A stretch of DNA of 64,000 nt from Haladaptatus cibarius D43 (GTDB taxonomy: Archaea; Halobacteriota; Halobacteria; Halobacteriales; Haladaptataceae), in assembly GCF_000710615.1 (NCBI RefSeq), contig NZ_JDTH01000002.1, positions 674,082-738,081 of the forward strand. Reading direction: 5' to 3'. The position numbers were made by a program, and so were the translations under genes. The notes beneath the pieces were generated by a model. It did no database searches. It saw nothing but the letters and a program-made list of their open reading frames with translations, and was not told the DNA's origin. Shown piece by piece: positions 9,558 through 35,284 of the stretch; the first letter of the stretch is position 1; every line of letters begins with the position of its first letter.

Positions 9558-9830
9558 GATTTCTCACGAAGTGAGCTATCCACTTCATTCATTCATGTCC
9601 GACTCATTTAGTTACACCCTAGGCTTAACATACGAATCTATTATAAGTCAGAATATTTTTCTTAGAAACTCTATACATCTGGACGAGGTTCGTGCGGTAT
9701 TATTTTCAATCCACCTGCTATATTCCGAAAGCCACAACAGCCTCTCGAAGGACGGTTTCTGTCGCTCACCAGAACGAGATTTTTCGAATGCACAGCAAAA
9801 AAGAAAAATCGTCCCAGTCGCTCGGACTGC

Positions 9831-13921: not shown

Positions 13922-15549
13922 CCCACGTCGCGCCCGCGCCCCACGAGTTCAAAGCCAACCTCAACTTCGTCAAACACGGCCTCTCACCGTATTGGGCGCT
14001 TTCCTCGTTGCTCATCGACCAGTACGATGGCTACGCCGACGAACTTGAGTTCCAACTGCAAGGCGAGATGTGGGAAGTCCGCTTCTCGTACAACTCCGGC
14101 GGCATCGCGCCCCGGTTGTCCGACCCGATCAACAGCGAGACACTCCTCGAACCGAAGGTTCACCTCTCGGGCGACGGCGAACGGAAAGCCGACTACCACA
14201 TTCGCCCGCGCTTCGCCGGGATGCAGACGCCCGATGGTGACCGAATCAACACGCCCTTCGATCGCGGCTCGATGCCCGACGAAGGCGTGAACGTTCGTAT
14301 CCAAGGAAGCAACCTCGAACACGACGAGTACGCACAGCTACTCCCGCAAGCTATCCGACGGTTGGCGAACGAGGCGGGAAACGGATTCAACCCGAAGTAC
14401 ATCCAGCCGCGGAACATCCACGAAACCTCGAACTGCGACGAGTACGAACGCTACGCGCGTCTTCGTCGTTCGATGAATCAGAAAGTCATCGGAACGGGTG
14501 GCGTTCTCCAGAAGCTCCACCACTTGCTCGTTGACCAGGAGGGAGTCAAGTACAGCCTCGACGTTGACAACGAGGACGTCGTCGGGAAGATGCACAAGCT
14601 CCCGCTCCGACGGAGCGCGGCGCGCGAACTCCCGGTCGGCAATCGCGGTAAGCAAATCAAGAGCTATCTGTTGAAAAATCCCAACAGCGTTGACGAGACG
14701 GATTCGACGTATCATCCGAAATTTGGTGTCCTCTTTCGGAAGTCGTTGAACGGCTCGACTGTTCCGTGGAGCGACCTGGACGACCTCCGTCGTGAGCTCG
14801 ACGAGACGATAATCAACCTGCTGTACTGGTCGGGCGTTCCGACCGACCCAGACCATACGACGTTCGTTCCCGACGATCACTTCGATGCAGTCGCGCACAA
14901 CGGGCCGACGCTCCGACTGTTCGACGACCCGACGCCACAGCTCGAAGCGAGCCAGGACGCGCTACTCATTCGCCAACTTCGAGAGCTGACCGACTCGGAC
15001 ATGGAACATCTTCGCGCGATGACTGACGGCGGTCAGATGCATTACGAAGAGGTCGTCGGAGAAGCGGAGACATCGGTTTCAACGCTGTACCGGACGCTCC
15101 AGCGTTGCGATGCCCTGCTGGAAAGCGACAACGGCGTTGTTCGCTGGCGCTCGAAGAAGATGCGTCAGGACATCAAAGCCGTCTGTGAGCGTGTCGAGGA
15201 TACGGTCGAGGCAGCCGCCGACAGCGCCGCGCGTCTAATGGGGATGGATCCTCAGCAACTTCGTGAGAAGGGCTCGGCATTCCAGTCGTGGCTCAACCGC
15301 TACGGTGCGGAGCTTATCGAAAACGACCACGAGATCAGCCAATCGGCGCACATCAAAGTCGAGGCCGTTCTCTCACGGTACAGAAGTGGGTCAGGCGAGT
15401 TCATCGGGAAGGTTCTCGATTACCTCGAAGTCTGTTGGGCAAAAGCTGGCTTCGATAAGCCGCTCGACGGCACGCTGGTTGAGTACAACACCGGCTCAGG
15501 ATACGAAGAGATTCGCATCGGGAGCTTCAAAGATCAGCGAATCCGGTAG
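13918..15549 (+). CDS. Large plasmid/provirus protein with winged helix (DUF7845-like)
   Basis: 543 residues, starting at GTG 13918 inside the DUF488 stop. The N-terminal ~200 residues are beta-rich (GEMWEVRFSYNSGG, HIRPRFAGMQTPDGD). A central winged helix is visible around residues 360-420 (DSDMEHLRAMTDGG...SVSTLYRTLQRCDALLE). The C-terminal region is helical with two aromatic-rich motifs. I recall this architecture from haloarchaeal plasmids and proviruses annotated DUF7845. A DNA-binding, perhaps replication-initiation, role is inferred from the helix-turn-helix and its place at one end of the element. No catalytic motif was recognised. Confidence 0.65.
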   Translation: MTHVAPAPHEFKANLNFVKHGLSPYWALSSLLIDQYDGYADELEFQLQGEMWEVRFSYNSGGIAPRLSDPINSETLLEPKVHLSGDGERKADYHIRPRFAGMQTPDGDRINTPFDRGSMPDEGVNVRIQGSNLEHDEYAQLLPQAIRRLANEAGNGFNPKYIQPRNIHETSNCDEYERYARLRRSMNQKVIGTGGVLQKLHHLLVDQEGVKYSLDVDNEDVVGKMHKLPLRRSAARELPVGNRGKQIKSYLLKNPNSVDETDSTYHPKFGVLFRKSLNGSTVPWSDLDDLRRELDETIINLLYWSGVPTDPDHTTFVPDDHFDAVAHNGPTLRLFDDPTPQLEASQDALLIRQLRELTDSDMEHLRAMTDGGQMHYEEVVGEAETSVSTLYRTLQRCDALLESDNGVVRWRSKKMRQDIKAVCERVEDTVEAAADSAARLMGMDPQQLREKGSAFQSWLNRYGAELIENDHEISQSAHIKVEAVLSRYRSGSGEFIGKVLDYLEVCWAKAGFDKPLDGTLVEYNTGSGYEEIRIGSFKDQRIR

Positions 15550-18470: not shown

Positions 18471-19010
18471 TCACTTCTCAGACTCGGCGTCGAGAACCTC
18501 CGGAACGAAGTACTGATTGTACCAGATCATCACCACACTCAGCACGACGAGATACCAGCGCGACGTACTCGGCAGCGTTCCCTCCCCGTTCATCCTCGCC
18601 AGCCACGGGAGGAAGATGCTACAAGCCGCGAGGATGCCCCAGCCGAGCGTGAGGCGATCCTGATCTCCCTCGAAGGGAAGCGGCAGGTGCACGTTGGCGA
18701 GAAGCGTCACGAGGCCGTAGCCCACGAGCAGGCCGACGCCAACATCGACGTGGTACGGCTGGCCTGCGTAGTTCGTCATCACAAGGACGCCCGTCATCAC
18801 GCCGACGACGGTCGCCGCCACCTGCAACATCGTTCGCTGCTGGGTCGGCGGAATCTCGTACCCACGTCGATAGAGCACGTAGGCGACGACTCCAGCAACG
18901 ACCAGTCCGAGAACCTTCAGACTCGGATTCACCCACCACGGCGGCGTGAGGTAGAACTCAACCAGCCACCGCGGTCCTTGTTCGATTCGGTAGAGCGGAT
19001 TCCTCGGCAT
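18471..19010 (-). CDS. Polytopic membrane protein, last gene of the virus-like operon
   Basis: 179 residues from ATG 19010, which shares its A with the upstream gene's stop (TAATG). About five hydrophobic helices: VLGLVVAGVVAYVLYR, LQVAATVVGVMTGVLVMT, GLLVGYGLVTLLANV, GWGILAACSIFLPWLA and YLVVLSVVMIWYNQY. The N-terminus is soluble with a PPWWVNPS motif. No family recognised. As the last gene of a tightly coupled membrane-protein operon it may be a virion or vesicle membrane component. Its 3' end is duplicated at 15824-15985. Confidence 0.7.
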   Translation of the reverse strand: MPRNPLYRIEQGPRWLVEFYLTPPWWVNPSLKVLGLVVAGVVAYVLYRRGYEIPPTQQRTMLQVAATVVGVMTGVLVMTNYAGQPYHVDVGVGLLVGYGLVTLLANVHLPLPFEGDQDRLTLGWGILAACSIFLPWLARMNGEGTLPSTSRWYLVVLSVVMIWYNQYFVPEVLDAESEK

Positions 19011-19531
19011 TACCTGGTCACCCGTATTGCGGCGACCGACGCAATCACGCCGATGATCATCAAGAGGACAATCTGGAGCCACGGCGGTGCAAGCCCGATA
19101 CTCGTCATCCCGTAGCCAACCGTCGCGGCAACGACGACGCCACCCGCACTACCGATGTTGGTGTACGAGATGGCCCCGAGGAAGACAGCCACCATCAGAA
19201 TCGCCGTGATGATGGTACCCGCGTAGGTCGTCCCACCGGGAATCTGGTCACCCGTCCCGATGACGAACGACCCGAGCCGAGAACTCATCTGGCCGAGCGT
19301 ATCGAGACTCACTGTGCCGTTATTCGGAAACCACGAACTCTGGTTTTCCAAGGCAGTCTCGTTTTCGTAGTACGGCGCGGTGTCGTTCAGCGCGCCAGAC
19401 GTCGAGTTGTTCGCTTGTGCATGCGCGACGCCAGAGCCACCGACGGGAATCGCAATCATCGCAAGCACCGCAAGTAATCCAACCAGCAGATGAACCGCAA
19501 GCTTCCGCTGGGAGTGCGTGTGTCGAATCAT
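19010..19531 (-). CDS. Membrane protein with signal peptide
   Basis: 173 residues. An N-terminal signal or anchor helix (LLVGLLAVLAMIAIPVGG, AHA site) precedes an extracellular Asn-rich loop with several N-X-S/T sequons (NNSTS, NETALENQS, NNGTVS), then three C-terminal helices. Couples to the next gene by TAATG and to the upstream gene by a 4-nt overlap. No family recognised; likely surface-exposed part of the same assembly. Confidence 0.7.
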   Translation of the reverse strand: MIRHTHSQRKLAVHLLVGLLAVLAMIAIPVGGSGVAHAQANNSTSGALNDTAPYYENETALENQSSWFPNNGTVSLDTLGQMSSRLGSFVIGTGDQIPGGTTYAGTIITAILMVAVFLGAISYTNIGSAGGVVVAATVGYGMTSIGLAPPWLQIVLLMIIGVIASVAAIRVTR

Positions 19532-19905
19532 GCTGAGCTTTTCACCAACCGTATGACGGCCATGTAGAACGCCACGACGAGCGTTCCACCAAGTAAGATG
19601 GTTACTCGTGGGGGCGCGGCGTTATCCAGCAGGACGAACACCGGCCAGTGGATCCACGCCAGCAGTCCAACGAACAGGTTCCAAACCAAGATTGCCGGGC
19701 CGCCGAAGGCACCGATCAGATTGGAGATGACGCCCGACACGCCGTCGAGTTTTTGCTCAGGCGTATCTGCCGGACTGACTCCGTCGGGCCCCTTCGTGAT
19801 GAAAAACTGCGTCACTCCGGAATTGTCGTAGGTGACGGCACCACCGCCGAACATCACGGCTCCCATGACGAAGTAAATCAGCACGATCTGGGAGGCTCGA
19901 ATCAT
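19528..19905 (-). CDS. Membrane protein, virus-like operon
   Basis: 125 residues with three hydrophobic stretches: an N-terminal helix (IVLIYFVMGAVMFGGG), a central one (AILVWNLFVGLLAWIHWPVFVLL) and a C-terminal one (VTILLGGTLVVAFYMAVI). A ~40-residue soluble loop (GPDGVSPADTPEQK) sits between the first two. ATG 19905 overlaps the stop of the large surface-protein gene (TAATG). No family recognised. Confidence 0.7.
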   Translation of the reverse strand: MIRASQIVLIYFVMGAVMFGGGAVTYDNSGVTQFFITKGPDGVSPADTPEQKLDGVSGVISNLIGAFGGPAILVWNLFVGLLAWIHWPVFVLLDNAAPPRVTILLGGTLVVAFYMAVIRLVKSSA

Positions 19906-22253
19906 TAGAGTCCCCTCCGTATCGCGGCAAACGACAGGAAGCCTACCGAGGCCACGAAGACCACATCATACGTCACCCCGAAGCCGATAACGCTGAATCC
20001 CGTGAGCGTGAGTACGCCTGCGAGTCCCGCGATTTCGCCGCTTGGTTGAATGCTCCCGACACCCGCGACGACGAGGACGGTCACGAGCATCGCAAGGAAG
20101 CCAGTGAAGGCGGCGCGAGCACCACCGGGCGGAGACAGCGCGGCCAGCGCCGCGATGCCCTCCAGCAGACTGTGATCGTTCCCGATGGCTTCGCTGAGCG
20201 CTATCTCGTAAGTTTCAGTCGCACTCAGGCCATTGCTGGTCGTCCACGTCACGTTCACCACAAGCGTGGACTCGTGGAAGCCGTCGAGATTCAGGGACTT
20301 CGAGAGCGTCCCTGGGTTCGAATCCGAGGCCGTCCACACGGTGGTCGTTGTGCTGTTCGTCCGGAGCGTGGCGGTCACGTTCCAATTCGTGACTGTCTGG
20401 TCACCCTCTCGAACGGAGACAGAGATGTCCGCGCCGTCGAGCGCCGGGAGTCGTCGCACTTGTGGATGAAGCACCACGTTCGGTGGCGCTCCCTCAAGTG
20501 TCGTTACACCCTCTGGAGTGACCACGACGGTTTGCGTACTCGGCGTGAGGGGCGTGTACGTTCCAACGATGCGCTGGTCTCCGGTCTCGACGTTGTGCAA
20601 GACGAGGCGGTGTCGCGTGTTGTACGCGAGTTGCGCGGGGAACTCACCGGATGCACCGAAGTAGTCCCCGAGGACGGTTTTGTAACTCCCATTCAGCGCA
20701 CGCTGCACGAGGAGAACCGTGTTGTCATCAGGATAGTTGCCGGTGTAGTCGTCGATGCTGAAAATCGTGTCAGAAATCTCCCTTCCGTCTGGGAGCATGT
20801 AGATGGACTGCGTGTCGTAAAGCGAGGGAACGAAAATCCGCCGGTTGTAGTAGCCGTCGGCCTCAGCGACGACGATAAAAGGCTTGTCCGCAGGCAGTCC
20901 CGTCATGTTGATCACGCCGTTCGAAGTGTTTCGGGTGAAGACCTCGACTGCGCCGGTTTCGTTCGTGAGCATCCGGAGCTCAACCTCAGCGTTATCCACG
21001 AGGTCGGATGGTGCGCTCTCGTTGAAGATCCGCAGGTCAGCGGGCGACGAGAACTGTGCGGTTTCCGAGGTCGTTCGATGCCCGTACTGGTCTTCGACCT
21101 CGATGTGCCAGTCGTGTGTGCCAGCATCCACGTCCGAGACTTCGAACGACGTGGTTCCGTTACTCGATGGCGTCGTCGTCCCACGTTTGATGTCGTCAAC
21201 GTACCAGTGAACAGTGAGGCTGTCCTGCGACCGACCGAAATCGACATCGGACACATCTGCAGAAAGCGTAACCGGTAGATCCGCGGTCGTCGTCGTGGTG
21301 TCTGGCGAGAGTGAGGTGTTGTCAACGGTCGGTGCGGAGGTTTCGACGAGAATACCCTCGTCATGTAATTGCGCAGTCGGATTCGCACCTGTCTTTTCGA
21401 ATGAGACGTTCACTCGCCACTTCTTGTAGCTCGACCCACTGATGTCGAGTGAGTAGTTGCCAGTGGAGGTGTATTCTGCTTGATTAACTACCTGCCACTT
21501 TCCACTGGTCGAATCATACGCTTGCCATTCGACTGTTGCTGATTCATTGACGAGCGTCAGATTCGTCCATGCTTTGTCAGCGTTATTGACTGAATGGTTG
21601 GAAGAGACATATGTTCCTGATTCTGCATTATCTGAGGCTTCTAGATTGTCGATGTAAAGCGTTGTGTTACCATGATCACCGGAATCGCAATTTCCAGAGG
21701 GAACTACCTCAAACACTACCTTCACTTCGCCATCTACCGATACATTTTGTGTTACCGTCCCTGATTTCGTCGTATTTCTCCCTCTCGGGATACCCTCACT
21801 ATGCACCTTTATTCCATCAGAGTACACTTTCCAGCGTGCATTTTCGTACCACACTTCTGTGACCGTCCGCCAATCGAACTCGAACGTTTGGCTTCCAGAG
21901 TACGTTCCGATCGTCCGGTTAGCCCGCGCAACGGAACACTGATAGACTCGATTTTTTAGTTCAGCACCGTCATTTTCAACCGTCGCATCCCCGTCTGTAT
22001 AGGTAGTCCATCCATCCAAGTCACCGTCATTGAAGTCGTCAATCAGGCGATGTACCGTTGCTAGTTCAAGATATGAACTCATCCCGGATCCTGCCACCGC
22101 AAGATTCTCACGCATCGACGCGTTCTCGAAATCCTCATCCGTCGTATGCTCACTCCCGACGGCTAACTGCCCATGGCTCGCATTCACCGGCACTGCCGAC
22201 ACGAGCAGGACACTCGCTAGCACCGCAAAGACCACAGTATGTGTCTCGCGCAT
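19905..22253 (-). CDS. Large surface/spike-like glycoprotein, membrane-anchored
   Basis: 782 residues from ATG 22253, which overlaps the previous gene's stop (ATGA). A signal peptide (VVFAVLASVLLVSAVPVNASHG) leads to a long extracellular beta-rich region. Residues ~65-215 resemble a carbohydrate-binding jelly roll (DDFNDGDLDGWTTYTDGD); residues ~280-390 an Ig/PKD-like module. Many N-X-S/T sequons. The C-terminus has three to four helices (FLAMLVTVLVVAGVG, AGVLTLTGFSVIGFG) that anchor it. Best guess is the receptor-binding spike of a virus or vesicle. The N-terminal third is visibly poorer in GC than the rest, suggesting domain exchange. Confidence 0.7.
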   Translation of the reverse strand: MRETHTVVFAVLASVLLVSAVPVNASHGQLAVGSEHTTDEDFENASMRENLAVAGSGMSSYLELATVHRLIDDFNDGDLDGWTTYTDGDATVENDGAELKNRVYQCSVARANRTIGTYSGSQTFEFDWRTVTEVWYENARWKVYSDGIKVHSEGIPRGRNTTKSGTVTQNVSVDGEVKVVFEVVPSGNCDSGDHGNTTLYIDNLEASDNAESGTYVSSNHSVNNADKAWTNLTLVNESATVEWQAYDSTSGKWQVVNQAEYTSTGNYSLDISGSSYKKWRVNVSFEKTGANPTAQLHDEGILVETSAPTVDNTSLSPDTTTTTADLPVTLSADVSDVDFGRSQDSLTVHWYVDDIKRGTTTPSSNGTTSFEVSDVDAGTHDWHIEVEDQYGHRTTSETAQFSSPADLRIFNESAPSDLVDNAEVELRMLTNETGAVEVFTRNTSNGVINMTGLPADKPFIVVAEADGYYNRRIFVPSLYDTQSIYMLPDGREISDTIFSIDDYTGNYPDDNTVLLVQRALNGSYKTVLGDYFGASGEFPAQLAYNTRHRLVLHNVETGDQRIVGTYTPLTPSTQTVVVTPEGVTTLEGAPPNVVLHPQVRRLPALDGADISVSVREGDQTVTNWNVTATLRTNSTTTTVWTASDSNPGTLSKSLNLDGFHESTLVVNVTWTTSNGLSATETYEIALSEAIGNDHSLLEGIAALAALSPPGGARAAFTGFLAMLVTVLVVAGVGSIQPSGEIAGLAGVLTLTGFSVIGFGVTYDVVFVASVGFLSFAAIRRGL

Positions 22254-22489
22254 CACTTCGCACCTCCACTCACACCCGTGAGGTACACGACGGTGAGCAC
22301 GGTCACCACCATCGCCGGGAATGCAAGTTGGAACAGGTACGCCGTCCCCGTCCCGAGTTCCCCTGCGTTGTCATTCATCACTGTGTACATCGGTTCCGCC
22401 AAGAACCCGAGGAGCAAGACGGCGACGCCGTAGTAGACGACATCGACAGGCGTCAGGCGGCCACGGGTATCTGAGTAATTTCTGGTCAT
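22253..22489 (-). CDS. Two-helix membrane protein, tandem paralogue 1
   Basis: 78 residues. SDTRGRLTPVDVVYYG leads into helix 1 (VAVLLLGFLAEPMYTVM), a short loop, then helix 2 (LAFPAMVVTVLTVVYLTG). It shares the SDTRGR...VD.V start and the P.MV/P.FV second helix with the next two genes. Coupled to the spike gene by ATGA. Possibly a structural membrane protein of the particle. Confidence 0.75.
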   Translation of the reverse strand: MTRNYSDTRGRLTPVDVVYYGVAVLLLGFLAEPMYTVMNDNAGELGTGTAYLFQLAFPAMVVTVLTVVYLTGVSGGAK

Positions 22490-22495
22490 GATTGG

Positions 22496-22735
22496 TTAGT
22501 TCGTTCTCGCCGAGATGCCGAGGCTGATAATCATCGCAATGACGAACAACGGCAGGATGAGCTGGAGGAGCGTCGCACTGAGCGGATCAACCACGCGCGC
22601 CCCCATCTGAATCGCCGTGTAGACCCACGGCGCGACTGCGATGAACGAAATGAGCGTGGCGAACGCCAGCACAATATCGACGTACTGCACCCGCCCCCGC
22701 GTATCACTGAGTCGGTCCAAAAGAGTGTCCTGCAT
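22496..22735 (-). CDS. Two-helix membrane protein, tandem paralogue 2
   Basis: 79 residues from ATG 22735. LSDTRGRVQYVDIV precedes helix 1 (LAFATLISFIAVAPWVYTAI) and helix 2 (LLQLILPLFVIAMIISLG). Clearly related to the genes on either side. Gaps of 5-6 nt to both neighbours. Confidence 0.75.
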   Translation of the reverse strand: MQDTLLDRLSDTRGRVQYVDIVLAFATLISFIAVAPWVYTAIQMGARVVDPLSATLLQLILPLFVIAMIISLGISARTN

Positions 22736-22740
22736 CGTCG

Positions 22741-22926
22741 TCACCCAGACTGAAGCCAACTTGCCAACGTCAGCAGAATCATCATCGGGAGCATCAACGA
22801 CACCAGAAACTGGACGTGAACCGGCAAGCCGTCGAGTGGCTCGCCAGTCCAGTACATCCACGCCGGGGCGACGATCACAATCCCGAGCAGTGCGAACACC
22901 GCGAACCAGAATCGAACCGGGTTCAC
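22741..22926 (-). CDS. Two-helix membrane protein, tandem paralogue 3
   Basis: 61 residues. I start it at GTG 22926, which overlaps the stop of the 1258-residue gene (GTGA); earlier codons would only add residues read in another frame of that gene. NPVRFWFAVFALLGIVIVAP then MYW, loop, and second helix FLVSLMLPMMILLTLASWL. Same two-helix plan as the two following genes but without the SDTRGR start. Confidence 0.72.
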   Translation of the reverse strand: MNPVRFWFAVFALLGIVIVAPAWMYWTGEPLDGLPVHVQFLVSLMLPMMILLTLASWLQSG

Positions 22927-25900
22927 AAGAACCACCCATCCTGCTCGTCACTCTCACTTTCACTCTCGCCAGTCACGTCAACGCCGAACCCGTCGAACGA
23001 AAACGTCGCTTCTGCTGCTTCGATACCTGCGCCGCCCGCGGCCTGCGCTTTCGTCTGGCGCTGTTCGGTCAGGTCAACCGCACCAGACCCGAAGTCGCTC
23101 GCCACTTCGCGCGGGCCTGCACCAGTCCCGAACGCCGTCACGAACTCGTTGAACCAGCCCGCGCCCAGTCCACGGTCGCCGCCGCTCGATCTGCCGCCAC
23201 CCAGCGAGAATTCACTGCCACCGCGCCGCTTCGACTTCCACGGGCGCGGCGGTTCGTCCTCGACCTCGGTTTCCGTCTCTGTCTCCGTCTCCCGCTCCGC
23301 CTCAAATTCCAGCTCAAGCTCAAGATCGTTCCGGTTCCGTCGGAAGTCGGGGCGAGTCTGTTGGGCCGTATCCGTTTGAGATTTCGCTCTCGTGTCCACG
23401 TCCGTCGCAATGTCTAAGTCCTCCTGCATGTCGGTGTCCGTGTCTGCGCCGACGAACCCGCGCACGAGGTCGAGGTCTATCTGCCCGTTTTCAAGCATCT
23501 GCGAGAACTGCTCGCGTTGCGCCTGCGTCTCCGCTGGCGTCTGTGGTTGCGTCAGCGACAACTCGAATCGGCCGCGAGGACGCCCCTTTCGGGCGTTCAA
23601 CTCCGATTCTTGCGCGCGGTTCTGTCGCCGCCGCGATTCACGAACCGTGTCCGTTTCCGACGCGAACGGGCGTCCAACGCCGTCGTAGTCGCCGCCCTCC
23701 AGCACCTCGTATCCCGCCTTCACTTGCCGGTCAACCGCCTGCTGGTACAGATTCGGCGTCACGCGGTCGTCCTGAATCTCACCCGAGGTTTCCGTCCCAC
23801 GACTTCGCCCTCGCCCCGCGAGACTCGCCTGGCCGCTCTCGTCCGCCACGAACTCCCGCACGTTCACGCCGAACTCCTGCATTGCCTGTGCCAGTTCACT
23901 CCGCCCTTGCGCGTCGCCCGCGATGCGTTGCAACGATTCGGACGGTTCGGACGATTCCACCGCCGACTCGATGTCGCCCTCGACCGGCGTGGTACTCGCC
24001 GTCTCGGTTGAATCCGCGGACTCAGTCGCACTCTCCGTTTCCGATGTGGTTTCCGCTCCCCGCGTTGGCCGCCTGCTGTCCAATGTCGCATCGAGGATGC
24101 TACTCGTATCGCTTCCGAGTGGTTCGCTCTTCGCGGCCACGAATGTCGATTCTGACGCCCTCGGTCGCTCCGTCGATTTCGACGCCCTCGGCTGATCCGT
24201 CAATTCTGACGCCCTCAGTTGATCCGTCGATTTTGACCCCCACGATTGCCCGCTCGCCGTGTCGAATTCCAGTTCTCCTCTGGCTTGGAGCAGATGATAC
24301 AAGTCACCCGAACGCTGAGCCTCCGTGTCAACCTCCAGTTCACCGCGGGTACCGCCCGCACGGATGGAGTCAACCACCGCGTTCTGGTACGGCGTCGCCG
24401 GGAGCTCGCCCGTCCGCGCGAACTGGGCCGCACGGGCCGCCTTCGACTTCACCGCGCCCGCCGCACGTTTCCCGCCGCGAATCGCCGCTTCCTCCGAAAA
24501 GAGAAGCGGTTCCTTGTTCGGGAAGTAGCGATTCGCCGCCTTCCGTCCCTTCGCCGCTTTCGTCGCCGCGTAGCCCGCGCGCCCGAGGGCTTCCTCGCCC
24601 GGCTGGATGGCCATCCGTGTCGCCAGTTCGGTTCGCTTCCCGACCTTCGACGCCGTCGAAATCGCGCCATACGATGCCGCGAAGCTCCCTGCGAGGAGTC
24701 CCACGCTTTCAGCGGGGTTCTGTTTTGCCTGTTCGACGACAGCGGAAGCTACCGCCGTACCTCGATTCCTCGACTCGTCTAGAAACTCCCTTCCTCGACC
24801 TTCTAACGTCTCATTGGTACCGTATGCTCCATATTCCACACCTTCCAGACCAGTCTCCACCAGCCCCGGAACGTCCGCAATCGCACCCGTCCCTTTCACG
24901 GTGCCTTTGCCGAACCCACTGAGATTCGATTCGAACGCGGCGGCGGTGTCATCCTTTCCTGCGTACCGCAACGCAGTCGCAATCCCGGAGTTCGACGCAT
25001 TCTTTTTGAACTCCTTCGCTTCACGGTTTAATCCGACCGTCCGCAATCCATCCGCAATTATAGAGTCCGACCCGCCTCTGCCGTCATCGAACACCGTCTC
25101 GGCCACGTCGTTGGTCGTCGCCGTGATTGTCTGACTGGCACCCTCCAGCGCGCCCTCGACCTCGTCTTCCGGGCCGCCGAGGCCGAACGACCAGTCGAAG
25201 TCATCCTGATCGACGGCCTTTGTTTCGACTTCCAGTTGGCCGGTTGGCCCGCGCCCAACGTCGGCGTGCACGCCGGGATTCGCGGCTTCGATTTCGTCTT
25301 CGAGGATTCGCTCGCCGAGTTGGCCGCCGGTACCTGCGTTCTGGCGGTTGTGCGTCTGGGCTTCGATGTCGGTGACGTTCACTGACCCGTCTTCATCGAC
25401 GCTCACGGACAGGTTGCGGCCCGATTCGTCTTCGAGTTGATTCTCGATGGTGTCGGCTCGCCACTCGCGCCATTCGTCGGTTCCACGGGTCGGTGTCTCG
25501 ACTTCATCGGTCGTCAGAACGTGCTGGCCGTCCGGGGTTTCCAGTTGGTCGGGTTGGTCGCCGAAAATGGGCGTGTACTGCACCGAGCCGTCCGATGCAG
25601 TGTTGACTTCGACGTACTCGGCTCCGGTCTGGTCTTTGATGCGCTGTCTGGTGAGCTTCTGTTTGCCCTCGTCGGAGTACTGCGCCACCAATTTGCCGTC
25701 TTCTTCACGAATCGTGACGTCGTCTTCGTCGAGGCCTGCGCCGTTGTTGGCAAGGATTTCTTCTTCGAATTCGCGCGCTTGCCTCCGTCGGTAGGCCTGT
25801 TGGTCGATGTTCAGCTCGACGGCGTTCTCGCCTTGATTGTACTCAATCGACCAGAGGTCGCGTTGGTTGTACAGCTCCGGGTTGTTGTTTCTGAGTTGCT

Positions 25901-26699
25901 GTTGGAGGTCATCGACGGCATCGGTCGCACCGAGTCCTTGCTGACGATCCGTATCGTCTTCCAATCCGGAGAGGCCGTCAGACGGCGCTTCGTCTTCGAT
26001 GCCGGAGGGACTTCCCGTCCCTCCTATCCTATCGTTCAACTCGTCCCCTGTCGGGCCTTGCTCATCGACGTCCCGGATGTTGTCGTCACCGCCGTAATCG
26101 ATTCCGCCGGGCGCTTCGAGCCGGTCGGGCGGCGACGAGCCATCACCGGAACCACCCGACGACGAGTCGCCTGTGCTGTCGTCTGGGGACGACCCCGAAT
26201 CAGGCACGTCACGAACGTTGTCGTCGCCACCGTAGTCGATTCCGCCGGGGGCTTCGAGACGACCGTCGAACGAACTGGTTCGCGCCATCTCCGTCACATT
26301 TGCCGACTGATCCATCGTCTCCAGCGAGTGATTCGTCGGTGGTGCCATCTCCGCGGTCTTTTGCACCTCTTCGACGAACTTCTTGTTCCGCGACTTCGAC
26401 TTCTTATCGACGCCGACGTCTGCTTCTATCGACTCCGCCGCCGAGGTCACAGTGTTCCGCGCCGCCTTCCTTGCTTCCGCGACGGCCCGGTCGGTATCAA
26501 TCGCCCCCGCCTTCGAGGACGCCGCTTCTACTGCTTTCTCGGTCGCTTTCTTGGCTTTCTCCGCACCACTTTTGGCCGCTTGTTCGGCTCGACTCGGTTC
26601 GTCACTCTGTCGGTCGTCTCGATGTTGTGTAGCCGATTGTTTCGCCCGCTTCTTCTCGTCACTCCCACCGCCGCCACCTCGTGTATTCGGCATCGGCAT
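22923..26699 (-). CDS. Giant Gly/Asp/Glu/Arg-rich protein, virus-like operon
   Basis: 1258 residues, the largest gene here. The N-terminus is Gly- and Lys-rich, then a ~100-residue Ala/Lys/Glu coiled-coil stretch. Two copies of RLEAPGGIDYGGDDN (~residues 147 and 200) flank a Ser/Gly/Asp linker. The middle (~280-480) is alpha-beta with repeated DGSVQYT/DGSVNVTD-like strands. Residues ~590-760 contain Ala-rich helical segments that may touch a membrane (VGLLAGSFAASYGAIS). A 9-residue tandem repeat (RASELTDQP type) follows near residue 830. The tail is long and charged. Looks like a structural or tape-like protein; no family recognised. Coupled to neighbours by 4-nt or shorter overlaps. Confidence 0.7.
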   Translation of the reverse strand: MPMPNTRGGGGGSDEKKRAKQSATQHRDDRQSDEPSRAEQAAKSGAEKAKKATEKAVEAASSKAGAIDTDRAVAEARKAARNTVTSAAESIEADVGVDKKSKSRNKKFVEEVQKTAEMAPPTNHSLETMDQSANVTEMARTSSFDGRLEAPGGIDYGGDDNVRDVPDSGSSPDDSTGDSSSGGSGDGSSPPDRLEAPGGIDYGGDDNIRDVDEQGPTGDELNDRIGGTGSPSGIEDEAPSDGLSGLEDDTDRQQGLGATDAVDDLQQQLRNNNPELYNQRDLWSIEYNQGENAVELNIDQQAYRRRQAREFEEEILANNGAGLDEDDVTIREEDGKLVAQYSDEGKQKLTRQRIKDQTGAEYVEVNTASDGSVQYTPIFGDQPDQLETPDGQHVLTTDEVETPTRGTDEWREWRADTIENQLEDESGRNLSVSVDEDGSVNVTDIEAQTHNRQNAGTGGQLGERILEDEIEAANPGVHADVGRGPTGQLEVETKAVDQDDFDWSFGLGGPEDEVEGALEGASQTITATTNDVAETVFDDGRGGSDSIIADGLRTVGLNREAKEFKKNASNSGIATALRYAGKDDTAAAFESNLSGFGKGTVKGTGAIADVPGLVETGLEGVEYGAYGTNETLEGRGREFLDESRNRGTAVASAVVEQAKQNPAESVGLLAGSFAASYGAISTASKVGKRTELATRMAIQPGEEALGRAGYAATKAAKGRKAANRYFPNKEPLLFSEEAAIRGGKRAAGAVKSKAARAAQFARTGELPATPYQNAVVDSIRAGGTRGELEVDTEAQRSGDLYHLLQARGELEFDTASGQSWGSKSTDQLRASELTDQPRASKSTERPRASESTFVAAKSEPLGSDTSSILDATLDSRRPTRGAETTSETESATESADSTETASTTPVEGDIESAVESSEPSESLQRIAGDAQGRSELAQAMQEFGVNVREFVADESGQASLAGRGRSRGTETSGEIQDDRVTPNLYQQAVDRQVKAGYEVLEGGDYDGVGRPFASETDTVRESRRRQNRAQESELNARKGRPRGRFELSLTQPQTPAETQAQREQFSQMLENGQIDLDLVRGFVGADTDTDMQEDLDIATDVDTRAKSQTDTAQQTRPDFRRNRNDLELELEFEAERETETETETEVEDEPPRPWKSKRRGGSEFSLGGGRSSGGDRGLGAGWFNEFVTAFGTGAGPREVASDFGSGAVDLTEQRQTKAQAAGGAGIEAAEATFSFDGFGVDVTGESESESDEQDGWFL
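24145..24225. repeat. 27-bp tandem repeat, three units
   Basis: Three in-frame 27-bp units (GTCGATTYTGACGCCCTC core) plus a partial fourth to ~24241, inside the giant protein gene. On the coding strand they give the nine-residue unit RASxSTDQP/RASELTDQP. Confidence 0.8.
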
Positions 26700-26914: not shown

Positions 26915-27072
26915 TCGTCCTCACCGCCGTCCGTGCAAATGCTCTCGATACGCCCGCTGGTGCCCGTTCGCTCCGCGAGTTTCTCCAAGAGTTCCTCGTA
27001 ATCACTCGCGGTCATCACGGTGCTCGACCGGTGCCCTTCGCGTTCGATGAGTTCGAGTCCAAAGCCCCGCAT
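26911..27072 (-). CDS. Small acidic protein (53 residues)
   Basis: Short gene encoding MRGFGLELIEREGHRSSTV then MTASDYEELLEKLAERTGTS and an acidic tail. The start ATG 27072 shares a base with the upstream stop (TAATG) and the stop overlaps the downstream ATG (ATGA), which strongly supports it as real. Predicted soluble and helical. Function unknown. Confidence 0.75.
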   Translation of the reverse strand: MRGFGLELIEREGHRSSTVMTASDYEELLEKLAERTGTSGRIESICTDGGEDE

Positions 27073-27701
27073 TACATCCCACCTGCCGTGAATCGGTAGC
27101 CAGCGTAGATGACGAACGTCACGGCGAGCAATCCGTACATCAGCGCGGTCTGGCTCATCCCGCCGAAGAGATTATCGAAGAATCCCGGTGGTTTGTCCTC
27201 GGCTTCGAGGTTGATGGTACGCTCGACGAGGTCAACCTCGATGCCGGGGTACGCCGGGTCACGGAGATTGATCGGGTCTGCTTCACCCTCCCGGTGGAGT
27301 GCAACCCATGCGCCAGTGTCGCCGTCGGCGACCATCGCTTTGCGCGGGAAGTAGTATGGCTGGCCGTCGACGGTCACTTTCGGTAGACCCGAGCCGTCCT
27401 GCTCTGGCTTCACCCACTGCGGACTCGTCAGCGTTGAGTCCAGTCGATACCACTTCACGTACCCCTTCTTAGCGAGCCGACTACCCCGCTGGAGGTGGCG
27501 AGCAACGCGCAGATAGTCCAGCGGCGACGTGGACACATCAGGCGGCGAGAAGTCGATAGGTTCGCCTTCCTCGAACTCTTCGGCGAGTTCGTCGAACTCT
27601 GCTTCGCGTTCTGCCCGATGCTCCTCGTAGTACCAGTACGCGACACCCGCGCCAGCGATGCCAACCACGCTGAGCAGGAGGGTGACGATGAGGGTGATCA
27701 T
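27072..27701 (-). CDS. Membrane protein with N- and C-terminal helices
   Basis: 209 residues. N-terminal helix (LIVTLLLSVVGIAGAGVAYWYY), a ~140-residue acidic soluble domain with FPRKAMVADGDTGAWVALHR, and a C-terminal helix (ALMYGLLAVTFVIYAGYRF). The soluble part (GYVKWYRLD, VTVDGQPYYFPRK) is beta-rich. Directly abuts the upstream gene. No family recognised; topology suggests an envelope or assembly protein. Confidence 0.7.
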   Translation of the reverse strand: MITLIVTLLLSVVGIAGAGVAYWYYEEHRAEREAEFDELAEEFEEGEPIDFSPPDVSTSPLDYLRVARHLQRGSRLAKKGYVKWYRLDSTLTSPQWVKPEQDGSGLPKVTVDGQPYYFPRKAMVADGDTGAWVALHREGEADPINLRDPAYPGIEVDLVERTINLEAEDKPPGFFDNLFGGMSQTALMYGLLAVTFVIYAGYRFTAGGM

Positions 27702-28322
27702 TTAGTTCGCCCTCCCGCGACCGAGCAACGGACTTGTATCCGTGTCCGCGTCGTCCTGTATCTCGTTGCGGCGAACGCGACCGAAGTAGTTGTCCTGCAA
27801 TCGCGCGCCCTTGCTCTTCGTCGTCTCGTGGTACGCCGCCGCCAGCGAGTTGAAAATCGGCTTGAACGGATCGAGACTCGTCTTCTCGTCGATTGCCGCC
27901 GCCTGCTCGACGCTCAACGAGTAGCGCGAGTCCGCAAGCGCGTTCCAAATCTCGTTCCCGCGTTCGAACAACGCCGTCGTGCGGCCATGCTCGTCGATGT
28001 CGTCGTCGTCGAGTGGCTTCCAGATCTGGGGCTCATCTTTCATTTCGTTGTAAAAACTGAACCCTTCGTCGGCGAGTTTGACCTTCGTTTCCTGTACTGC
28101 GCGCTTCCGGAGCGTCTCGCTAAACGCGATGTCAGTGACGAGGCCCTTGCGGACGCTCCGCATTTGCATCGCAATGTCCTCGTCGTCGTAGTAGCCGGTT
28201 CCGAGGTTGATTTGTTCGAGTAAATCGCTGTACTCCGAACTCCGAATGATGGAGAAGGCGACGTCGAGGTCGTCGCGCGGCTCGGTGTCGTTGCCACTTG
28301 CTTGGTGTGGTTGTGCTTCCAT
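27702..28322 (-). CDS. Acidic soluble protein, virus-like operon
   Basis: 206 residues, no membrane segment. Mostly helical: AFSIIRSSEYSDLLEQIN, YYDDEDIAMQMRSVRKGL, an FNSLAAAYHETTKSKGARL helix and a disordered acidic end (DDADTDTSPLLGRG). The composition suits a scaffold or internal particle protein. Lies 1 nt after the upstream gene and directly before the downstream gene. No family recognised. Confidence 0.7.
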   Translation of the reverse strand: MEAQPHQASGNDTEPRDDLDVAFSIIRSSEYSDLLEQINLGTGYYDDEDIAMQMRSVRKGLVTDIAFSETLRKRAVQETKVKLADEGFSFYNEMKDEPQIWKPLDDDDIDEHGRTTALFERGNEIWNALADSRYSLSVEQAAAIDEKTSLDPFKPIFNSLAAAYHETTKSKGARLQDNYFGRVRRNEIQDDADTDTSPLLGRGRAN

Positions 28323-28323
28323 G

Positions 28324-28677
28324 TTAGAGATCCTCCGCGAGTGTTTGGCTCATGAGCACTGCCCCGAGGAGCATCACGAGGCCACCGAGGCCGAGGCTCC
28401 CGAGGACGCCGATGTTCAGTATCTGTGCGAGTGTTCTGGTCTGGTAGTCGTAGCTCACGGTGGCGTTGTCCCGAACCGCAGTGCCGTTGAACTCACTGTA
28501 GGAGTACGAACGAGTCTCTCCAGTCCGGATTTCGACGCCCGTCAGCGCGATGGCGCTTCCCGCGATGATGATGATGGCCGCGCCGATCATGGCGACGCCC
28601 TTGTAGCGCAGAAGCTGGCCGATAAGCCAGACTGCGAGGCCAAGAACGACCAGACCGGCCACGACGTTGAATAGCAT
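28324..28677 (-). CDS. Three-helix membrane protein, coat-like candidate
   Basis: 117 residues. Two N-terminal helices (VVAGLVVLGLAVWLIGQLL; GVAMIGAAIIIIAGSAIAL), a short polar loop containing VSYDYQ, and a C-terminal helix (IGVLGSLGLGGLVMLLGAVL). The VSYDYQ + helix end resembles the C-terminus of the 148-residue protein two genes upstream. Coupled to the 26-codon micro-ORF by TAATG. Confidence 0.7.
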   Translation of the reverse strand: MLFNVVAGLVVLGLAVWLIGQLLRYKGVAMIGAAIIIIAGSAIALTGVEIRTGETRSYSYSEFNGTAVRDNATVSYDYQTRTLAQILNIGVLGSLGLGGLVMLLGAVLMSQTLAEDL

Positions 28678-28757
28678 TAATTGGTCACCTCAGGCTGTTC
28701 TGGGTACGATAAAAGAAGGTGAATCGTGTCGGTGGCGTCGGGTTCGAGGCTGGTCAT
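28677..28757 (-). CDS. 26-residue coupled micro-ORF
   Basis: Encodes MTSLEPDATDTIHLLLSYPE plus QPEVTN. Its ATG lies inside the upstream gene's stop (ATGA) and its stop overlaps the downstream ATG (TAATG). Such exact coupling on both sides argues that it is translated. Acidic, no membrane helix. Function unknown. Confidence 0.6.
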   Translation of the reverse strand: MTSLEPDATDTIHLLLSYPEQPEVTN

Positions 28758-29203
28758 CAGACCATCCCCTCCACAGCGGAGGCGATTCCGAAGAAGATCA
28801 GAACCCCCATCCCGACCGGGATGAAGCCAACCACGAGCGTTGTCAGGTCGTCGCTGGCTTGGTAGTCGTAGCTGACTTTCACGTCCTCGCCCTCGTCGAA
28901 GAGGGTGCTCGAACTGTTCAGGTCGAGTGTGCCCGACCCGTCGTCGAGCGTGTAGTCGGACGCAGACGCAACTTCGTAGCTTTCGGACGTGTCGTTGTAG
29001 CCGTAGACCGTCTCGCTCCCCGGGTCAATGTTGTAGCCCCGGAGGTCGATACTCTCGTCGAAACCGACCCCGTGAGAGTCGTTGAGCACTGCCTGCGACC
29101 CAGTGTTGTTCGTGACGGTCGAGTTGACCGGCGAAAGCATGATGAGTCCGACTGCTGCGAAAACTGATAGCGTGATTACGACTTTCGCAGTTCCCGATGC
29201 CAT
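28757..29203 (-). CDS. Pilin- or coat-like membrane protein
   Basis: 148 residues: N-terminal helix (VVITLSVFAAVGLIMLSPV, possible signal), an acidic beta-rich ectodomain with sequons (NNTGS, NDTSES, NSSST), VSYDYQ, and a C-terminal helix TLVVGFIPVGMGVLIFFGIA. That last helix is strikingly like the one in the next upstream gene (TIIGFIPVMLGVLIFVATV). Candidate major membrane/coat protein. Confidence 0.72.
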   Translation of the reverse strand: MASGTAKVVITLSVFAAVGLIMLSPVNSTVTNNTGSQAVLNDSHGVGFDESIDLRGYNIDPGSETVYGYNDTSESYEVASASDYTLDDGSGTLDLNSSSTLFDEGEDVKVSYDYQASDDLTTLVVGFIPVGMGVLIFFGIASAVEGMV

Positions 29204-29219
29204 GTATTAAATATGGACA

Positions 29220-29492
29220 TTAGGTTCGTGCCATAATCGGGCCGACAGTTGCGACGAAGATCAGGACACCGAGCATCACCGGAATGAAACCGATGATTGT
29301 CGCGGTGAGACCAGTCATATTCGAGCTTTCGATTACGTCGTTCGTAATCGGAATCGCCACTCCGACACCGACGATGACAGCGACTGCAATACCGATGATC
29401 AGCGACACGAGGTTTCCTCGTGCCTGTGCGCGGTTGTCATCGCGCATTCGCGTGAGCAATGTTTCGATAAATCCGCTGGGTAGTTTGTCCAT
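29220..29492 (-). CDS. Two-helix coat-like protein, first gene of the minus-strand operon
   Basis: 90 residues: charged N-terminus (FIETLLTRMRDDNRAQARG), helix 1 (LVSLIIGIAVAVIVGVGVAI), a short loop, helix 2 (TIIGFIPVMLGVLIFVATVG). A two-helix protein preceded by a perfect AGGAGGTGA ribosome-binding site 8-9 nt upstream suggests strong expression, as expected for a major structural protein. It resembles spindle-virus coat proteins in size and two-helix layout only; homology is not shown. Confidence 0.72.
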   Translation of the reverse strand: MDKLPSGFIETLLTRMRDDNRAQARGNLVSLIIGIAVAVIVGVGVAIPITNDVIESSNMTGLTATIIGFIPVMLGVLIFVATVGPIMART

Positions 29493-29626
29493 GTAGTGTT
29501 CACCTCCTGATTACCAACCCGTTAAAGGGGGATATGAATAAGAATTGTCGGAGTTATTGAGGTGTTTAATGAATTATCTAAGTATCCAGCACAGTAGTTA
29601 TGTGGATAGAATACCTGTAATGATAT
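29493..29626. promoter_or_regulatory. Divergent promoter region
   Basis: AT-rich 134-bp gap between two divergent operons. Minus strand: AGGAGGTGA at ~29503-29511 and an upstream CTTATTCATAT-type TATA. Plus strand: the start at 29627 is nearly leaderless after GTAATGATAT. Likely the main switch of the virus-like module. Confidence 0.55.
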
Positions 29627-29869
29627 ATGTCAAGTAGTACGGTCAATGAGAAAATTATGACACATCGTCAACAGAATACCCCCGAAGGCGAACCACTCCT
29701 CAAACTGAACCGCAACCTCACCGTCACAGGTGGCGGGAGTGTGAACGTCAACGTCGCTACGGAAGCCTGTGACATTATCGGCTTTCCCCGCGCCGAGAAC
29801 GCCACCGGAACAGAGGTTTCCATTGAAATCTACCGCGACAGATACGTCGTGCGACCCAAGGACGAATGA
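29627..29869 (+). CDS. Small AbrB-like putative regulator
   Basis: 80 residues; an internal ATG at 29657 (MTHRQQNTPE) is an alternative start. The strand pattern LLKLNRNLTVTGGGSVNVNV, a short helix, then VSIEIYRDRYVVRPK looks like an AbrB/SpoVT swapped-hairpin fold, though the match is weak. First gene of the plus-strand operon, coupled to the next by ATGA, and well placed to control the divergent structural operon. Confidence 0.5.
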   Translation: MSSSTVNEKIMTHRQQNTPEGEPLLKLNRNLTVTGGGSVNVNVATEACDIIGFPRAENATGTEVSIEIYRDRYVVRPKDE

Positions 29870-30363
29870 GCACGAACACCCCAGAAGAGGCCTCAACCCA
29901 GCGTTGGGAAGGGTATTCCGATTACCAGTCTGTCAGCAACCGAGTCGCGGCCGCGATCGACGACGCCATCGATGCGTTCGCGTACATTCAGTCGCTCCAT
30001 CTCGAAAATGAGCGCATCCGCCAGCGCGAAGCCGCGCAAGCCCGAAGCCGAATCCTCGGAGTTACCATCAAGCTCCTCCCAGAGCTCGAAGCGAACGCTG
30101 GCCATTCCGACACAGAAGACGATGACGACGTCTACCGCGACATCCTCCAGCGGTGGACGAAATCCTACGACGGCGGAGACGGGTTTCTCGACCGCTTCCA
30201 AACTATCCAACTCCAAAAGGAGTGTCCCGACTGGCTTCACCAGCTCGTCAAAGACATCCGGAAAGCGGGCTGGGAAATTGGCTACCTGCAAGCAGGCCGC
30301 ACCGTCACCGAATCGACTCTTGAACCGAACGAAGAACAAGCACGCTCGATGTTCGAGGAGTAA
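29866..30363 (+). CDS. Helical acidic protein upstream of ATPase
   Basis: 165 residues, no membrane helix. Long helices with RVAAAIDDAIDAFAYIQSL, RQREAAQARSRILGVTIKLL and WLHQLVKDIRKAGWEIGYL; acidic linker (DTEDDDDVY). No family recognised. Overlaps the regulator by 4 nt and ends 8 nt before the ATPase gene, so it is probably an ATPase partner. Confidence 0.65.
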   Translation: MSTNTPEEASTQRWEGYSDYQSVSNRVAAAIDDAIDAFAYIQSLHLENERIRQREAAQARSRILGVTIKLLPELEANAGHSDTEDDDDVYRDILQRWTKSYDGGDGFLDRFQTIQLQKECPDWLHQLVKDIRKAGWEIGYLQAGRTVTESTLEPNEEQARSMFEE

Positions 30364-30371
30364 CAGCATAG

Positions 30372-31250
30372 ATGGAACGCTACAAGCGATTTCTGGAGAA
30401 ATTACACGAGCACGTCCAACGCGATTGGGACCGTCTCATGCCTGTCATCGGCGAAGAAGGGGCCGGGAAAAGCACGCTTATCCTTCAGTCAATCTGGCTC
30501 TACGAACAGATTCGTGGCAACGACCCGACCCCGGAGAGCGTCCTCGATTACATCGTCTTCGATGACCGCGACGCGTTTAAACAGAAGTTGCTAACGGCAG
30601 ACGCTGGCGACCCGATCGGTGTGATGGATGCCGCCCATATCCTGTACAACAAGGACGTGATGATGCCCGACCAGAAGGATGTCGAAAAGAGTCTTCTCGA
30701 CATTCGAACTGAAAACTACGTTATCTTCCTCGGGTATCAGGACTGGGGCGACATTCCCGACCAACTGCGAAAACGACGCGCGAAGAACGTGATTCAGGTG
30801 CCAAGTCGGGGAACGATCAAGGGGTACAACCGCCGCCAACTCGACGAGAAGTACCACAAACTCGACGACATGCAGTGGCCCGACCACGCGCTCACCGACA
30901 CGTTTCCGTCGCTCGAAGGTACGCGGCTCTGGAAGCGCTTCGACGAAGTTGACAAAGAGCGCAAACGCAGGCGTCTCCAGCAAGATGACGACAGCGACGC
31001 CGAACTGACACCGCAGGACGTCGTCGGTAAAATCGTCGTCGAGGACGCACTCGAAGAGTACGTCGAAGTGAATGAGTTTCAGAAGCGAGCGTACTACTCG
31101 AAGTCGTTGCTCCGTTACGATTACCCAGACCTGAGCGATCAGCAGGCAGACCAAGTCCGGTCGGCATTGACTCGTGAGGCAGACCCTGAAACACTCGCTG
31201 ACCTCGATGGGACAGACACCCCACCCCCCACGGGTGAGGGAAAATCATGA
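30372..31250 (+). CDS. P-loop ATPase of virus/plasmid type
   Basis: 292 residues. Walker A GEEGAGKST at residues 27-35, Walker B-like GVMDAA around 80-86, then NYVIFLGYQDWGDIPDQL and RAKNVIQVPSRG, a strand-turn pattern seen in Zot-like and other virus/plasmid assembly ATPases. The C-terminal ~100 residues are charged with a possible small DNA-binding helix bundle (VNEFQKRAYYSKSLLRYDYPD). I recall related AAA-type proteins in His1 virus and PL6-type plasmids, but the link is unverified. Likely drives particle assembly or DNA packaging for the divergent operon. Confidence 0.75.
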   Translation: MERYKRFLEKLHEHVQRDWDRLMPVIGEEGAGKSTLILQSIWLYEQIRGNDPTPESVLDYIVFDDRDAFKQKLLTADAGDPIGVMDAAHILYNKDVMMPDQKDVEKSLLDIRTENYVIFLGYQDWGDIPDQLRKRRAKNVIQVPSRGTIKGYNRRQLDEKYHKLDDMQWPDHALTDTFPSLEGTRLWKRFDEVDKERKRRRLQQDDDSDAELTPQDVVGKIVVEDALEEYVEVNEFQKRAYYSKSLLRYDYPDLSDQQADQVRSALTREADPETLADLDGTDTPPPTGEGKS

Positions 31251-34696: not shown

Positions 34697-35284
34697 TCAT
34701 AGCCACGACACCTTCTCACGTTCACGTCGCTGTGCTTCCGGGCTGTGCGTCCCTCGGTAGTGATCGAGGAACGTGTCGAGGTCGTCCCAGCCGCCCCAGT
34801 CGCAGACCACCATCGCGTCCACGTCCGCCGAGCGTAACGACGTGGCCCACGTTCGGCGCAAGTCGTGGAAGCCGACGAACTCCCAGCCCGGCTCGTCGGT
34901 CGCGTCGAGGAGGTCTTCGGTTGCCCGCTCCATCCAGCGCCGGAGCGTTCGCGTCGAAACGCCGACGACCGGGTCGTCAGCTGGGGCGTCGCGGACGTCG
35001 CCGACGGTTCGAATCGTCGTGGCGAGCGTCGGCGGAATCGGCGTCTCGCGGTAGTGGTTCGTCTTCGCCGATTTCCAGACGCGAAGCATCTGTCCTGCGT
35101 CGGTGTCGGCGACGCGATCCGGCGCGACCCGGACGACCTCGTCCGACCGGAGGCCGCACCGTACCGCCAGCCCGACCGCGATGCGCTTCTCGGTGTCTTC
35201 GAACTCGTCGAGGAGCTGGCCGACTTCGGATTCGGACAGCCACACTTTCATCCCGTCGTCGTTCTCGTAGTCTACTAAGTTCAT
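34697..35284 (-). CDS. Mini tyrosine recombinase (catalytic domain only)
   Basis: 195 residues. Catalytic residues visible: Arg in VRCGLRSDEV, Lys in WKSAKTNHYRE, the HDLRR (HxxR) motif, a late Trp in CDWGGWDD and nucleophile Tyr in FLDHYRG. It lacks the N-terminal SAM-like DNA-binding domain of full integrases; this short form is common on haloarchaeal plasmids. It may resolve dimers or move the 32.0-35.4 kb unit. Very GC-rich next to AT-rich neighbours. A conserved repeat lies directly upstream. Confidence 0.85.
   Translation of the reverse strand: MNLVDYENDDGMKVWLSESEVGQLLDEFEDTEKRIAVGLAVRCGLRSDEVVRVAPDRVADTDAGQMLRVWKSAKTNHYRETPIPPTLATTIRTVGDVRDAPADDPVVGVSTRTLRRWMERATEDLLDATDEPGWEFVGFHDLRRTWATSLRSADVDAMVVCDWGGWDDLDTFLDHYRGTHSPEAQRREREKVSWL

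Follow-up and report, generated by a model that had tools for sequence, protein, structure and literature searches.

A VP1/VP3-type coat-protein pair in what is very probably an integrated spindle-shaped virus of Haladaptatus cibarius D43

Three open reading frames (ORFs) were confirmed on the minus strand of a 64,000-nucleotide stretch of the Haladaptatus cibarius D43 genome (the window): 29220-29492 (90 aa), 28757-29203 (148 aa) and 28324-28677 (117 aa). A sequence-only reading of this DNA had proposed that the three products are a small family of major structural membrane proteins made by duplication. The perfect ribosome site that it described for the first gene is present as AGGAGGTGA at 29500-29508, 7 nt ahead of the start codon of the 90-aa ORF. 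The features of the three genes are as follows.

29220..29492, minus strand: 90-aa VP1-like major capsid protein with a basic N-terminus, two membrane helices and a short loop (profile and PHROG matches)
29500..29508, minus strand: AGGAGGTGA, ribosome-binding site of the 90-aa gene
29424..29432, minus strand: R-A-Q codons, candidate prepilin-peptidase-like site ahead of helix 1 (from the motif [KR][GA]^[EQ], found in 12/12 VP1 proteins)
29244..29309, minus strand: second helix of the 90-aa protein, a 22-residue common block (profile and block comparisons)
28757..29203, minus strand: 148-aa VP3-like minor coat protein, arranged as helix, Ig-like domain and helix (phrog_5402 and phrog_807)
28835..29119, minus strand: Ig-like domain of the 148-aa protein, flanked by its two helices (phrog_807)
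28781..28846, minus strand: second helix of the 148-aa protein, the same 22-residue common block (profile and block comparisons)
28324..28677, minus strand: 117-aa membrane protein with three helices, outside the coat pair (homologs lie beside the pair in all five elements)

The last helix of the 90-aa and 148-aa products had been described as nearly the same, and this was borne out: 12/22 residues are identical with a BLOSUM62 score of 62, which was reached by none of 20,000 shuffles; the window's 148 other ORFs with a length of 100 aa or more supplied 580 TM-like 22-mers for comparison, and the best of them scored 34. Furthermore, the profiles of the two families (five members each) aligned with 95.9% probability (E=5.7e-9), over the last 31 columns only.

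We compared the 90-aa family with known proteins by several routes. The profile of its five haloarchaeal members matched SSV19 VP1 (7xdi_A) at E=1.4e-6 over profile positions 16-79 of 88, and this was the only match at E<=0.01 among 177,635 PDB sequences. Independently of the PDB result, four of the eight members of the family alignment (A1) matched phrog_11172 (best 4.6e-7), which is the fusellovirus VP1 family, as SSV1 VP1 matches it at 1.9e-73. Direct profile comparison of the 90-aa family with SSV1 VP1 gave a probability of 83%. Structure prediction from the single 90-aa sequence yielded two helices (6-55 and 59-89, pLDDT 75), and a Foldseek search with this single-sequence model returned no PDB fold at E<=0.001. 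No Pfam family reached its cut-off for the 90-aa, 148-aa or 117-aa protein, homolog searches of viral contigs and genome contigs turned up no confirmed relative of either the 90-aa protein or the nearby ATPase, and tblastn of the 88-aa homolog from locus L025 against phage records found nothing beyond one non-significant match. Taken together, these comparisons support well the assignment of the 90-aa product as a VP1-type major capsid protein, predicted to form a two-helix hairpin.

The 148-aa protein has a helix at either end and an Ig-like stretch between them (phrog_807, 4.4e-7, aa 29-123). It also matched phrog_5402 at E=0.0021 over aa 6-37; this family was verified as fusellovirus VP3 by the match of SSV1 VP3 at 9.2e-42. 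Three of the five members of the 148-aa family matched phrog_5402, all weakly (E=0.0012-0.0025), with the match placed at the N-terminal helix in the proteins of the window and L030 but at the C-terminal helix in that of L026. By hhalign, the family and SSV1 VP3 gave 21%, on helix 1. The gene occupies a VP3-type position, adjoining the VP1-type gene and having the second helix in common with it; in SSV1 the VP1 and VP3 genes are likewise adjacent and their last helix is 18/22 identical. A review describes VP1 and VP3 of fuselloviruses as paralogs (PMC9608457), and deletion of vp3 in SSV1 was reported to give longer, thinner virions (PMC5748691). Homologs of the 148-aa protein were found in four other genera at 34-41% identity. 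Its Ig-like stretch recurs in unrelated large ORFs, and most further matches in the family search were such stretches; tblastn of the protein against phage records gave no match, and its structure prediction was poor (pLDDT 49). From these comparisons, the 148-aa product is best read as a paralogous minor coat protein, a putative VP3, with the Ig-like domain placed in the loop between its helices, an assignment one step weaker than that of the 90-aa protein as VP1. The label 'major structural' is supported for this pair by the matches of the 90-aa family to SSV19 VP1 and PHROG 11172 and by the weak ones of the 148-aa family to PHROG 5402.

To follow the pair in other genomes, 392 Halobacteriales genomes were searched at E<=0.001 with the 148-aa and 90-aa proteins, which matched in nine and seven genomes, respectively. 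The two genes were adjacent in five of the 392: G000 (the window's own genome), G080, G264 (three copies), G288 (two copies) and G378. From a 203-aa gene to the ATPase gene, most of the module is conserved with the same neighbours in the loci compared; the ATPase and its 165-aa neighbour were unmatched in the G288 stretches available for comparison. The 148-aa protein also matched short ORFs of 156 and 163 aa in G257 and G205, the former in an element resembling the Haloferax phage LSV-48N. Its matches in G112 and G275 were set aside, being ORFs of 918 and 1259 aa that match in the Ig-like stretch only. The 90-aa protein matched G116 (L031) at E=4.9e-4, where BLAST of the element genes listed no match, and a weak G296 match (L032), which sits among seemingly ordinary chromosomal genes, was dropped. 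Two observations stand apart. The three G264 copies (L026, L027 and L028) are near-identical, two of them lie on one 75.8-kb contig, and the frame of the 148-aa homolog is broken by single-base insertions in two of the three. The LSV-48N-like element of G257 (L033) carries two similar, capsid-like two-helix ORFs in tandem (9746-10078 and 10075-10422), which overlap by a few bases.

The 22-residue helix-2 block was then compared in 12 VP1/VP3 pairs, five from the haloarchaeal elements and seven from fuselloviruses (SSV1 and six, including SVK1 and SSV17, hand-picked from 60 matched records). Identity between the two helices averaged 0.686 within a virus versus 0.443 between viruses, and none of 20,000 permutations reached 0.686. 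The within-virus value was reached by 2/120 permutations for the five haloarchaeal pairs alone and by 48/5040 for the seven fuselloviruses alone, where the excess is small. In 12/12 pairs, the paralogous helix 2 of the same virus was nearer than every ortholog from the other group. At the codon level the pairs differed. The same codons were used at 15/17 identical helix-2 residues in G080, 16/18 in SSV1 and 10/14 in G264; the values for G080 and SSV1 point to recent DNA exchange, and the SSV1 record annotates a direct repeat spanning helix 2 in both genes. Agreement was 5/12 in G000, 6/13 in G378 and 5/12 in G288, no more than between the five genomes (86/173). Gene conversion is thus the apparent explanation for some of the VP1/VP3 pairs. 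Because codon agreement in the other pairs is no higher than between genomes, their helix-2 likeness seems to lie at the protein level, which suggests packing in one lattice.

These comparisons suggest that helix 2 of VP1 and VP3 evolves in concert, although the between-group part also fits separate VP1/VP3 duplications in the haloarchaeal and fusellovirus lines, which would need no concerted evolution. Separate duplications equally predict the 12/12 paralogs nearer than other-group orthologs, and they agree with an Ig-like domain limited to VP3 of the haloarchaeal group. However, helix 2 still covaries within genomes among the five haloarchaeal carriers of an Ig-bearing VP3, and the codon agreement in G080 and SSV1 is that of recent exchange. 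We consider separate duplications unlikely as the whole account, though of the alternatives weighed here they deserve the most attention, and we prefer concerted evolution.

The coat pair lies in a larger set of genes on both strands, for which the functions of genes other than the coat pair are inferred from position.

27702..28322, minus strand: 206-aa conserved protein (homologs in L024-L030)
27072..27701, minus strand: 209-aa conserved protein (homologs in L024-L030)
22923..26699, minus strand: 1258-aa low-complexity protein at the position of LSV-48N CDS15 (E=0.002 to CDS15; 31% to L029/L030 over 154 aa)
22253..22963, minus strand: small two-helix membrane proteins of 64 aa, about 70 aa and 78 aa (homolog comparison)
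19905..22256, minus strand: 783-aa secreted, C-terminally anchored protein, a probable tail protein or adhesin (35.5% to LSV-48N CDS12, E=2e-25; homologs in L024-L030)
19528..19905, minus strand: 125-aa membrane protein after the tail gene (homologs of 33-55% in the loci of five genomes)
19010..19531, minus strand: 173-aa membrane protein (first PDB match SSV19 B210, non-significant)
18471..19082, minus strand: 203-aa membrane protein, encoded by the final conserved gene in the operon
29627..29869, plus strand: 80-aa protein of the divergent operon, at the position of LSV-48N CDS21
29866..30363, plus strand: 165-aa conserved protein (41-44% to L024-L028 homologs)
30372..31250, plus strand: 292-aa DnaA-like ATPase (phrog_5484, E=1.5e-4; LSV-48N CDS23; 42-43% to L024-L028 homologs)
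13918..15549, plus strand: DUF7845 protein of the Rep-Arvir rolling-circle replication family, which probably belongs to the element (PF25227, E=6.3e-106)
34697..35284, minus strand: tyrosine integrase, probably of the element (PF00589, 5.8e-14; phrog_1, 3.5e-18)

The weak first PDB match of the 173-aa profile, SSV19 B210, is described as a tail adaptor and was non-significant (E=0.27). Between window positions 6500 and 42000, no convincing attachment repeats and no element ends were found. Some further features were observed along the window. A 27-nt tandem repeat lies at 24145-24244 within the 1258-aa ORF. Within the small membrane trio at 22253-22963, homologs of one protein are also matched by another member (E=2e-4 and 4e-4), a hint that the coat operon contains a second tandem duplication. 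Near the left side of the element, a 388-aa protein (16930-18096) weakly matches trypsin-like peptidases (Trypsin_2, E=1.1e-4; Trypsin, 2.6e-4). At 7846-8612, inside a chromosomal 582-aa ORF, lie direct repeats 155 nt (93%) and 128 nt (73%) long, an internal protein duplication.

Within the phage collection, the 783-aa product and the 292-aa ATPase had their sole matches in LSV-48N (35.5%, E=2e-25, and 26.3%, E=4e-3, respectively), which is associated with lemon-shaped particles 65-90 nm long (PMC12714723). The likeness extends to the gene order of the whole structural and divergent operons: a small two-helix protein, a second two-helix protein that bears an Ig-like domain, a small membrane protein and two conserved proteins are followed by a long low-complexity protein, small membrane proteins, a long secreted protein and more membrane proteins, and the divergent operon contains the ATPase. 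An integrase is also common to both, and the 148-aa protein and LSV-48N CDS19 both match phrog_807. In contrast, clear sequence matches are limited to the tail protein and the ATPase, and the provirus is known here from its genes alone. According to the LSV-48N paper, no ORF of that virus is similar to any known capsid protein (PMC12714723). CDS20, which sits at the capsid-gene position, gave no sequence match to the 90-aa profile; by position and topology alone, it would be the counterpart of the 90-aa capsid gene. By gene order and by tail and ATPase homology, the element belongs with the LSV-48N group.

The comparison with the Fuselloviridae (SSV1 and SSV19) rests on other genes. Common features are a two-helix coat protein assigned to the VP1 type by a significant profile match, adjacent VP1 and VP3 genes with helix 2 in common, a DnaA-like ATPase, an integrase and the motif [KR][GA]^[EQ] ahead of helix 1. 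The provirus differs in its haloarchaeal host, in the Ig-like domain of its VP3 and in the residue after the candidate cut, Gln in its VP1 and Glu in the fuselloviruses. The core genes of the family are listed as VP1, VP4, integrase, B251, A82, A92, C166, A154 and B115 (PMC9608457). The 117-, 125- and 173-aa families matched none of SSV1 A82, C166 and B78; with VP1, an integrase and a DnaA-like ATPase found and A82 and C166 unmatched, the element was not placed in the Fuselloviridae. His1 (Halspiviridae), also a halophilic spindle virus, has a comparable series: a 73-aa two-helix protein (gp21, its capsid protein) is followed by a 148-aa protein that has a helix at each terminus and by proteins with three helices. 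It differs in its linear genome, as given in its record, and in giving no significant sequence match: gp21 and the 90-aa family compared at noise level (hhalign 4.6%; phrog_11172, E=0.029), and His1 gp23 had no PHROG match and therefore no Ig match.

These comparisons lead us to regard the locus as very probably the structural module, or coat-protein cassette, of an integrated lemon-shaped (spindle) haloarchaeal virus with a VP1/VP3 pair. A plasmid or vesicle-forming element that produces no virion and has retained coat-like proteins for a role at the cell surface appears improbable. In favour of it, the lineage is one without a known particle, and DUF7845 proteins, a Rep-Arvir replication family present in LSV-48N and other elements, are found in both plasmids and viruses (PMC13107129). 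Against it, the structural module is kept across five genera and is syntenic with that of a virus whose lemon-shaped particles have been seen.

The inclusion of the 117-aa product in the duplicated family was not upheld. VSYDYQ is indeed common to the 148-aa and 117-aa products, with a 6-residue match in only 10/5000 double shuffles, and a similar strand ahead of the last helix is kept in several 117-aa homologs. However, by hhalign the 117-aa family compared with the 148-aa family at 1.0% and with the other coat family at 1.2%, and its members have three helices with conserved columns that differ from those of the coat pair. Because the 148-aa and 117-aa profiles are unrelated, the VSYDYQ match carries no weight for kinship, and a single family of all three proteins is very improbable. 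Duplication as the origin of structural membrane proteins is thus supported for the 90-aa and 148-aa pair but not for the third member; the sequence-only reading had named neither a spindle-shaped virus family, nor the Ig-like insertion, nor concerted evolution of the common helix. The 117-aa protein would instead be an accessory membrane protein, no part of the duplication. Its gene occupies the position of fusellovirus A82, which is reported to kill uninfected cells (PMC9608457); the family gave no sequence match to SSV1 A82 (0.5%), and position alone is no evidence for an A82-like function. The idea that the helix common to the 90-aa and 148-aa proteins is a generic hydrophobic anchor, alike by composition in two unrelated proteins, is already largely refuted and scarcely credible: the two membrane helices are short and resemble each other in composition, and the 148-aa model lacks a reliable fold, but the block score far exceeds that of any other TM-like segment or shuffle, the family profiles align, and the arrangement recurs in SSV1 and six other fuselloviruses.

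In SSV1 particles, VP1 was reported to start with a Glu conserved in all SSVs, with the cleaving protease stated as unknown in 2017; the five residues ahead of the site were required, and Glu to Gln was tolerated better than Glu to Ala (PMC5748691). We found [KR][GA]^[EQ] shortly ahead of helix 1 in 12/12 VP1 proteins compared. In the seven fusellovirus proteins, Glu follows the cut and the preceding residue is Gly in five and Ala in two (SSV19 VP1 carries R-A^E); in the five haloarchaeal proteins, Gln follows the candidate cut. In SSV1 the motif agrees with the published mature N-terminal Glu. Published prepilin processing sites include RAQ, KGQ and RAV, and type IV prepilins and archaellins, with their class III signal peptides, resemble VP1 in having such sites before a hydrophobic helix (PMC4371748). 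In contrast to them, the 90-aa protein has a second helix and lacks a pilin domain, and no pilin homology is claimed. The D43 genome encodes a prepilin peptidase of family PF06847. A strict automatic class III signal test was passed by four of the five haloarchaeal VP1 proteins and by SSV1 VP1; it was failed by LSV-48N CDS20, His1 gp21, two L033 proteins and the window VP1, the last because of an Arg close behind the site. As background, 8/119 ORFs passed, four of them VP1 homologs.

Processing of VP1 by prepilin peptidase stays a proposal because the VP1 homologs do not count as independent cases and helices often have a basic residue ahead of them. A Sulfolobus islandicus strain without PibD was reported to make no SSV9, but infection also depends on processed pilins, which this strain does not have; pilin mutants, too, resist SSV9 infection (PMC7217056). 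Our search, which covered mostly literature outside subscription journals, found no published link between VP1 cleavage and prepilin peptidase. We propose that spindle viruses, from fuselloviruses to halophilic proviruses, may mature a pilin-like VP1 precursor at [KR][GA]^[EQ] by way of host PibD, taking over a step of pilus or archaellum biogenesis, and that an unprocessed VP3 with a concertedly evolving helix 2 may act as a built-in shape regulator; for this proposal as a whole, we find belief and doubt evenly balanced.

In the assembly that we envisage, VP1 and VP3 would become embedded in the membrane of the host, and the spindle shell would form from them as the particle buds. The VP1 precursor would be cut at [KR][GA]^[EQ] by the host prepilin peptidase, and VP1 would form the lattice. 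VP3 would enter the same lattice position via the common helix 2, display its Ig-like domain on the surface and help set the shape of the shell. Packing of both proteins in one lattice would keep helix 2 alike in each virus, with gene conversion helping in some lineages.

Elements that have the LSV-48N gene order yet a recognisable VP1 would bridge the halophilic lemon-shaped viruses and the fuselloviruses, and the shared order points, by position, to the capsid gene of LSV-48N. The motif common to both groups names a testable candidate for the protease that cleaves SSV1 VP1. In addition, a VP1/VP3 helix that changes together in each virus may offer a clue to how the curvature of a spindle shell is set.
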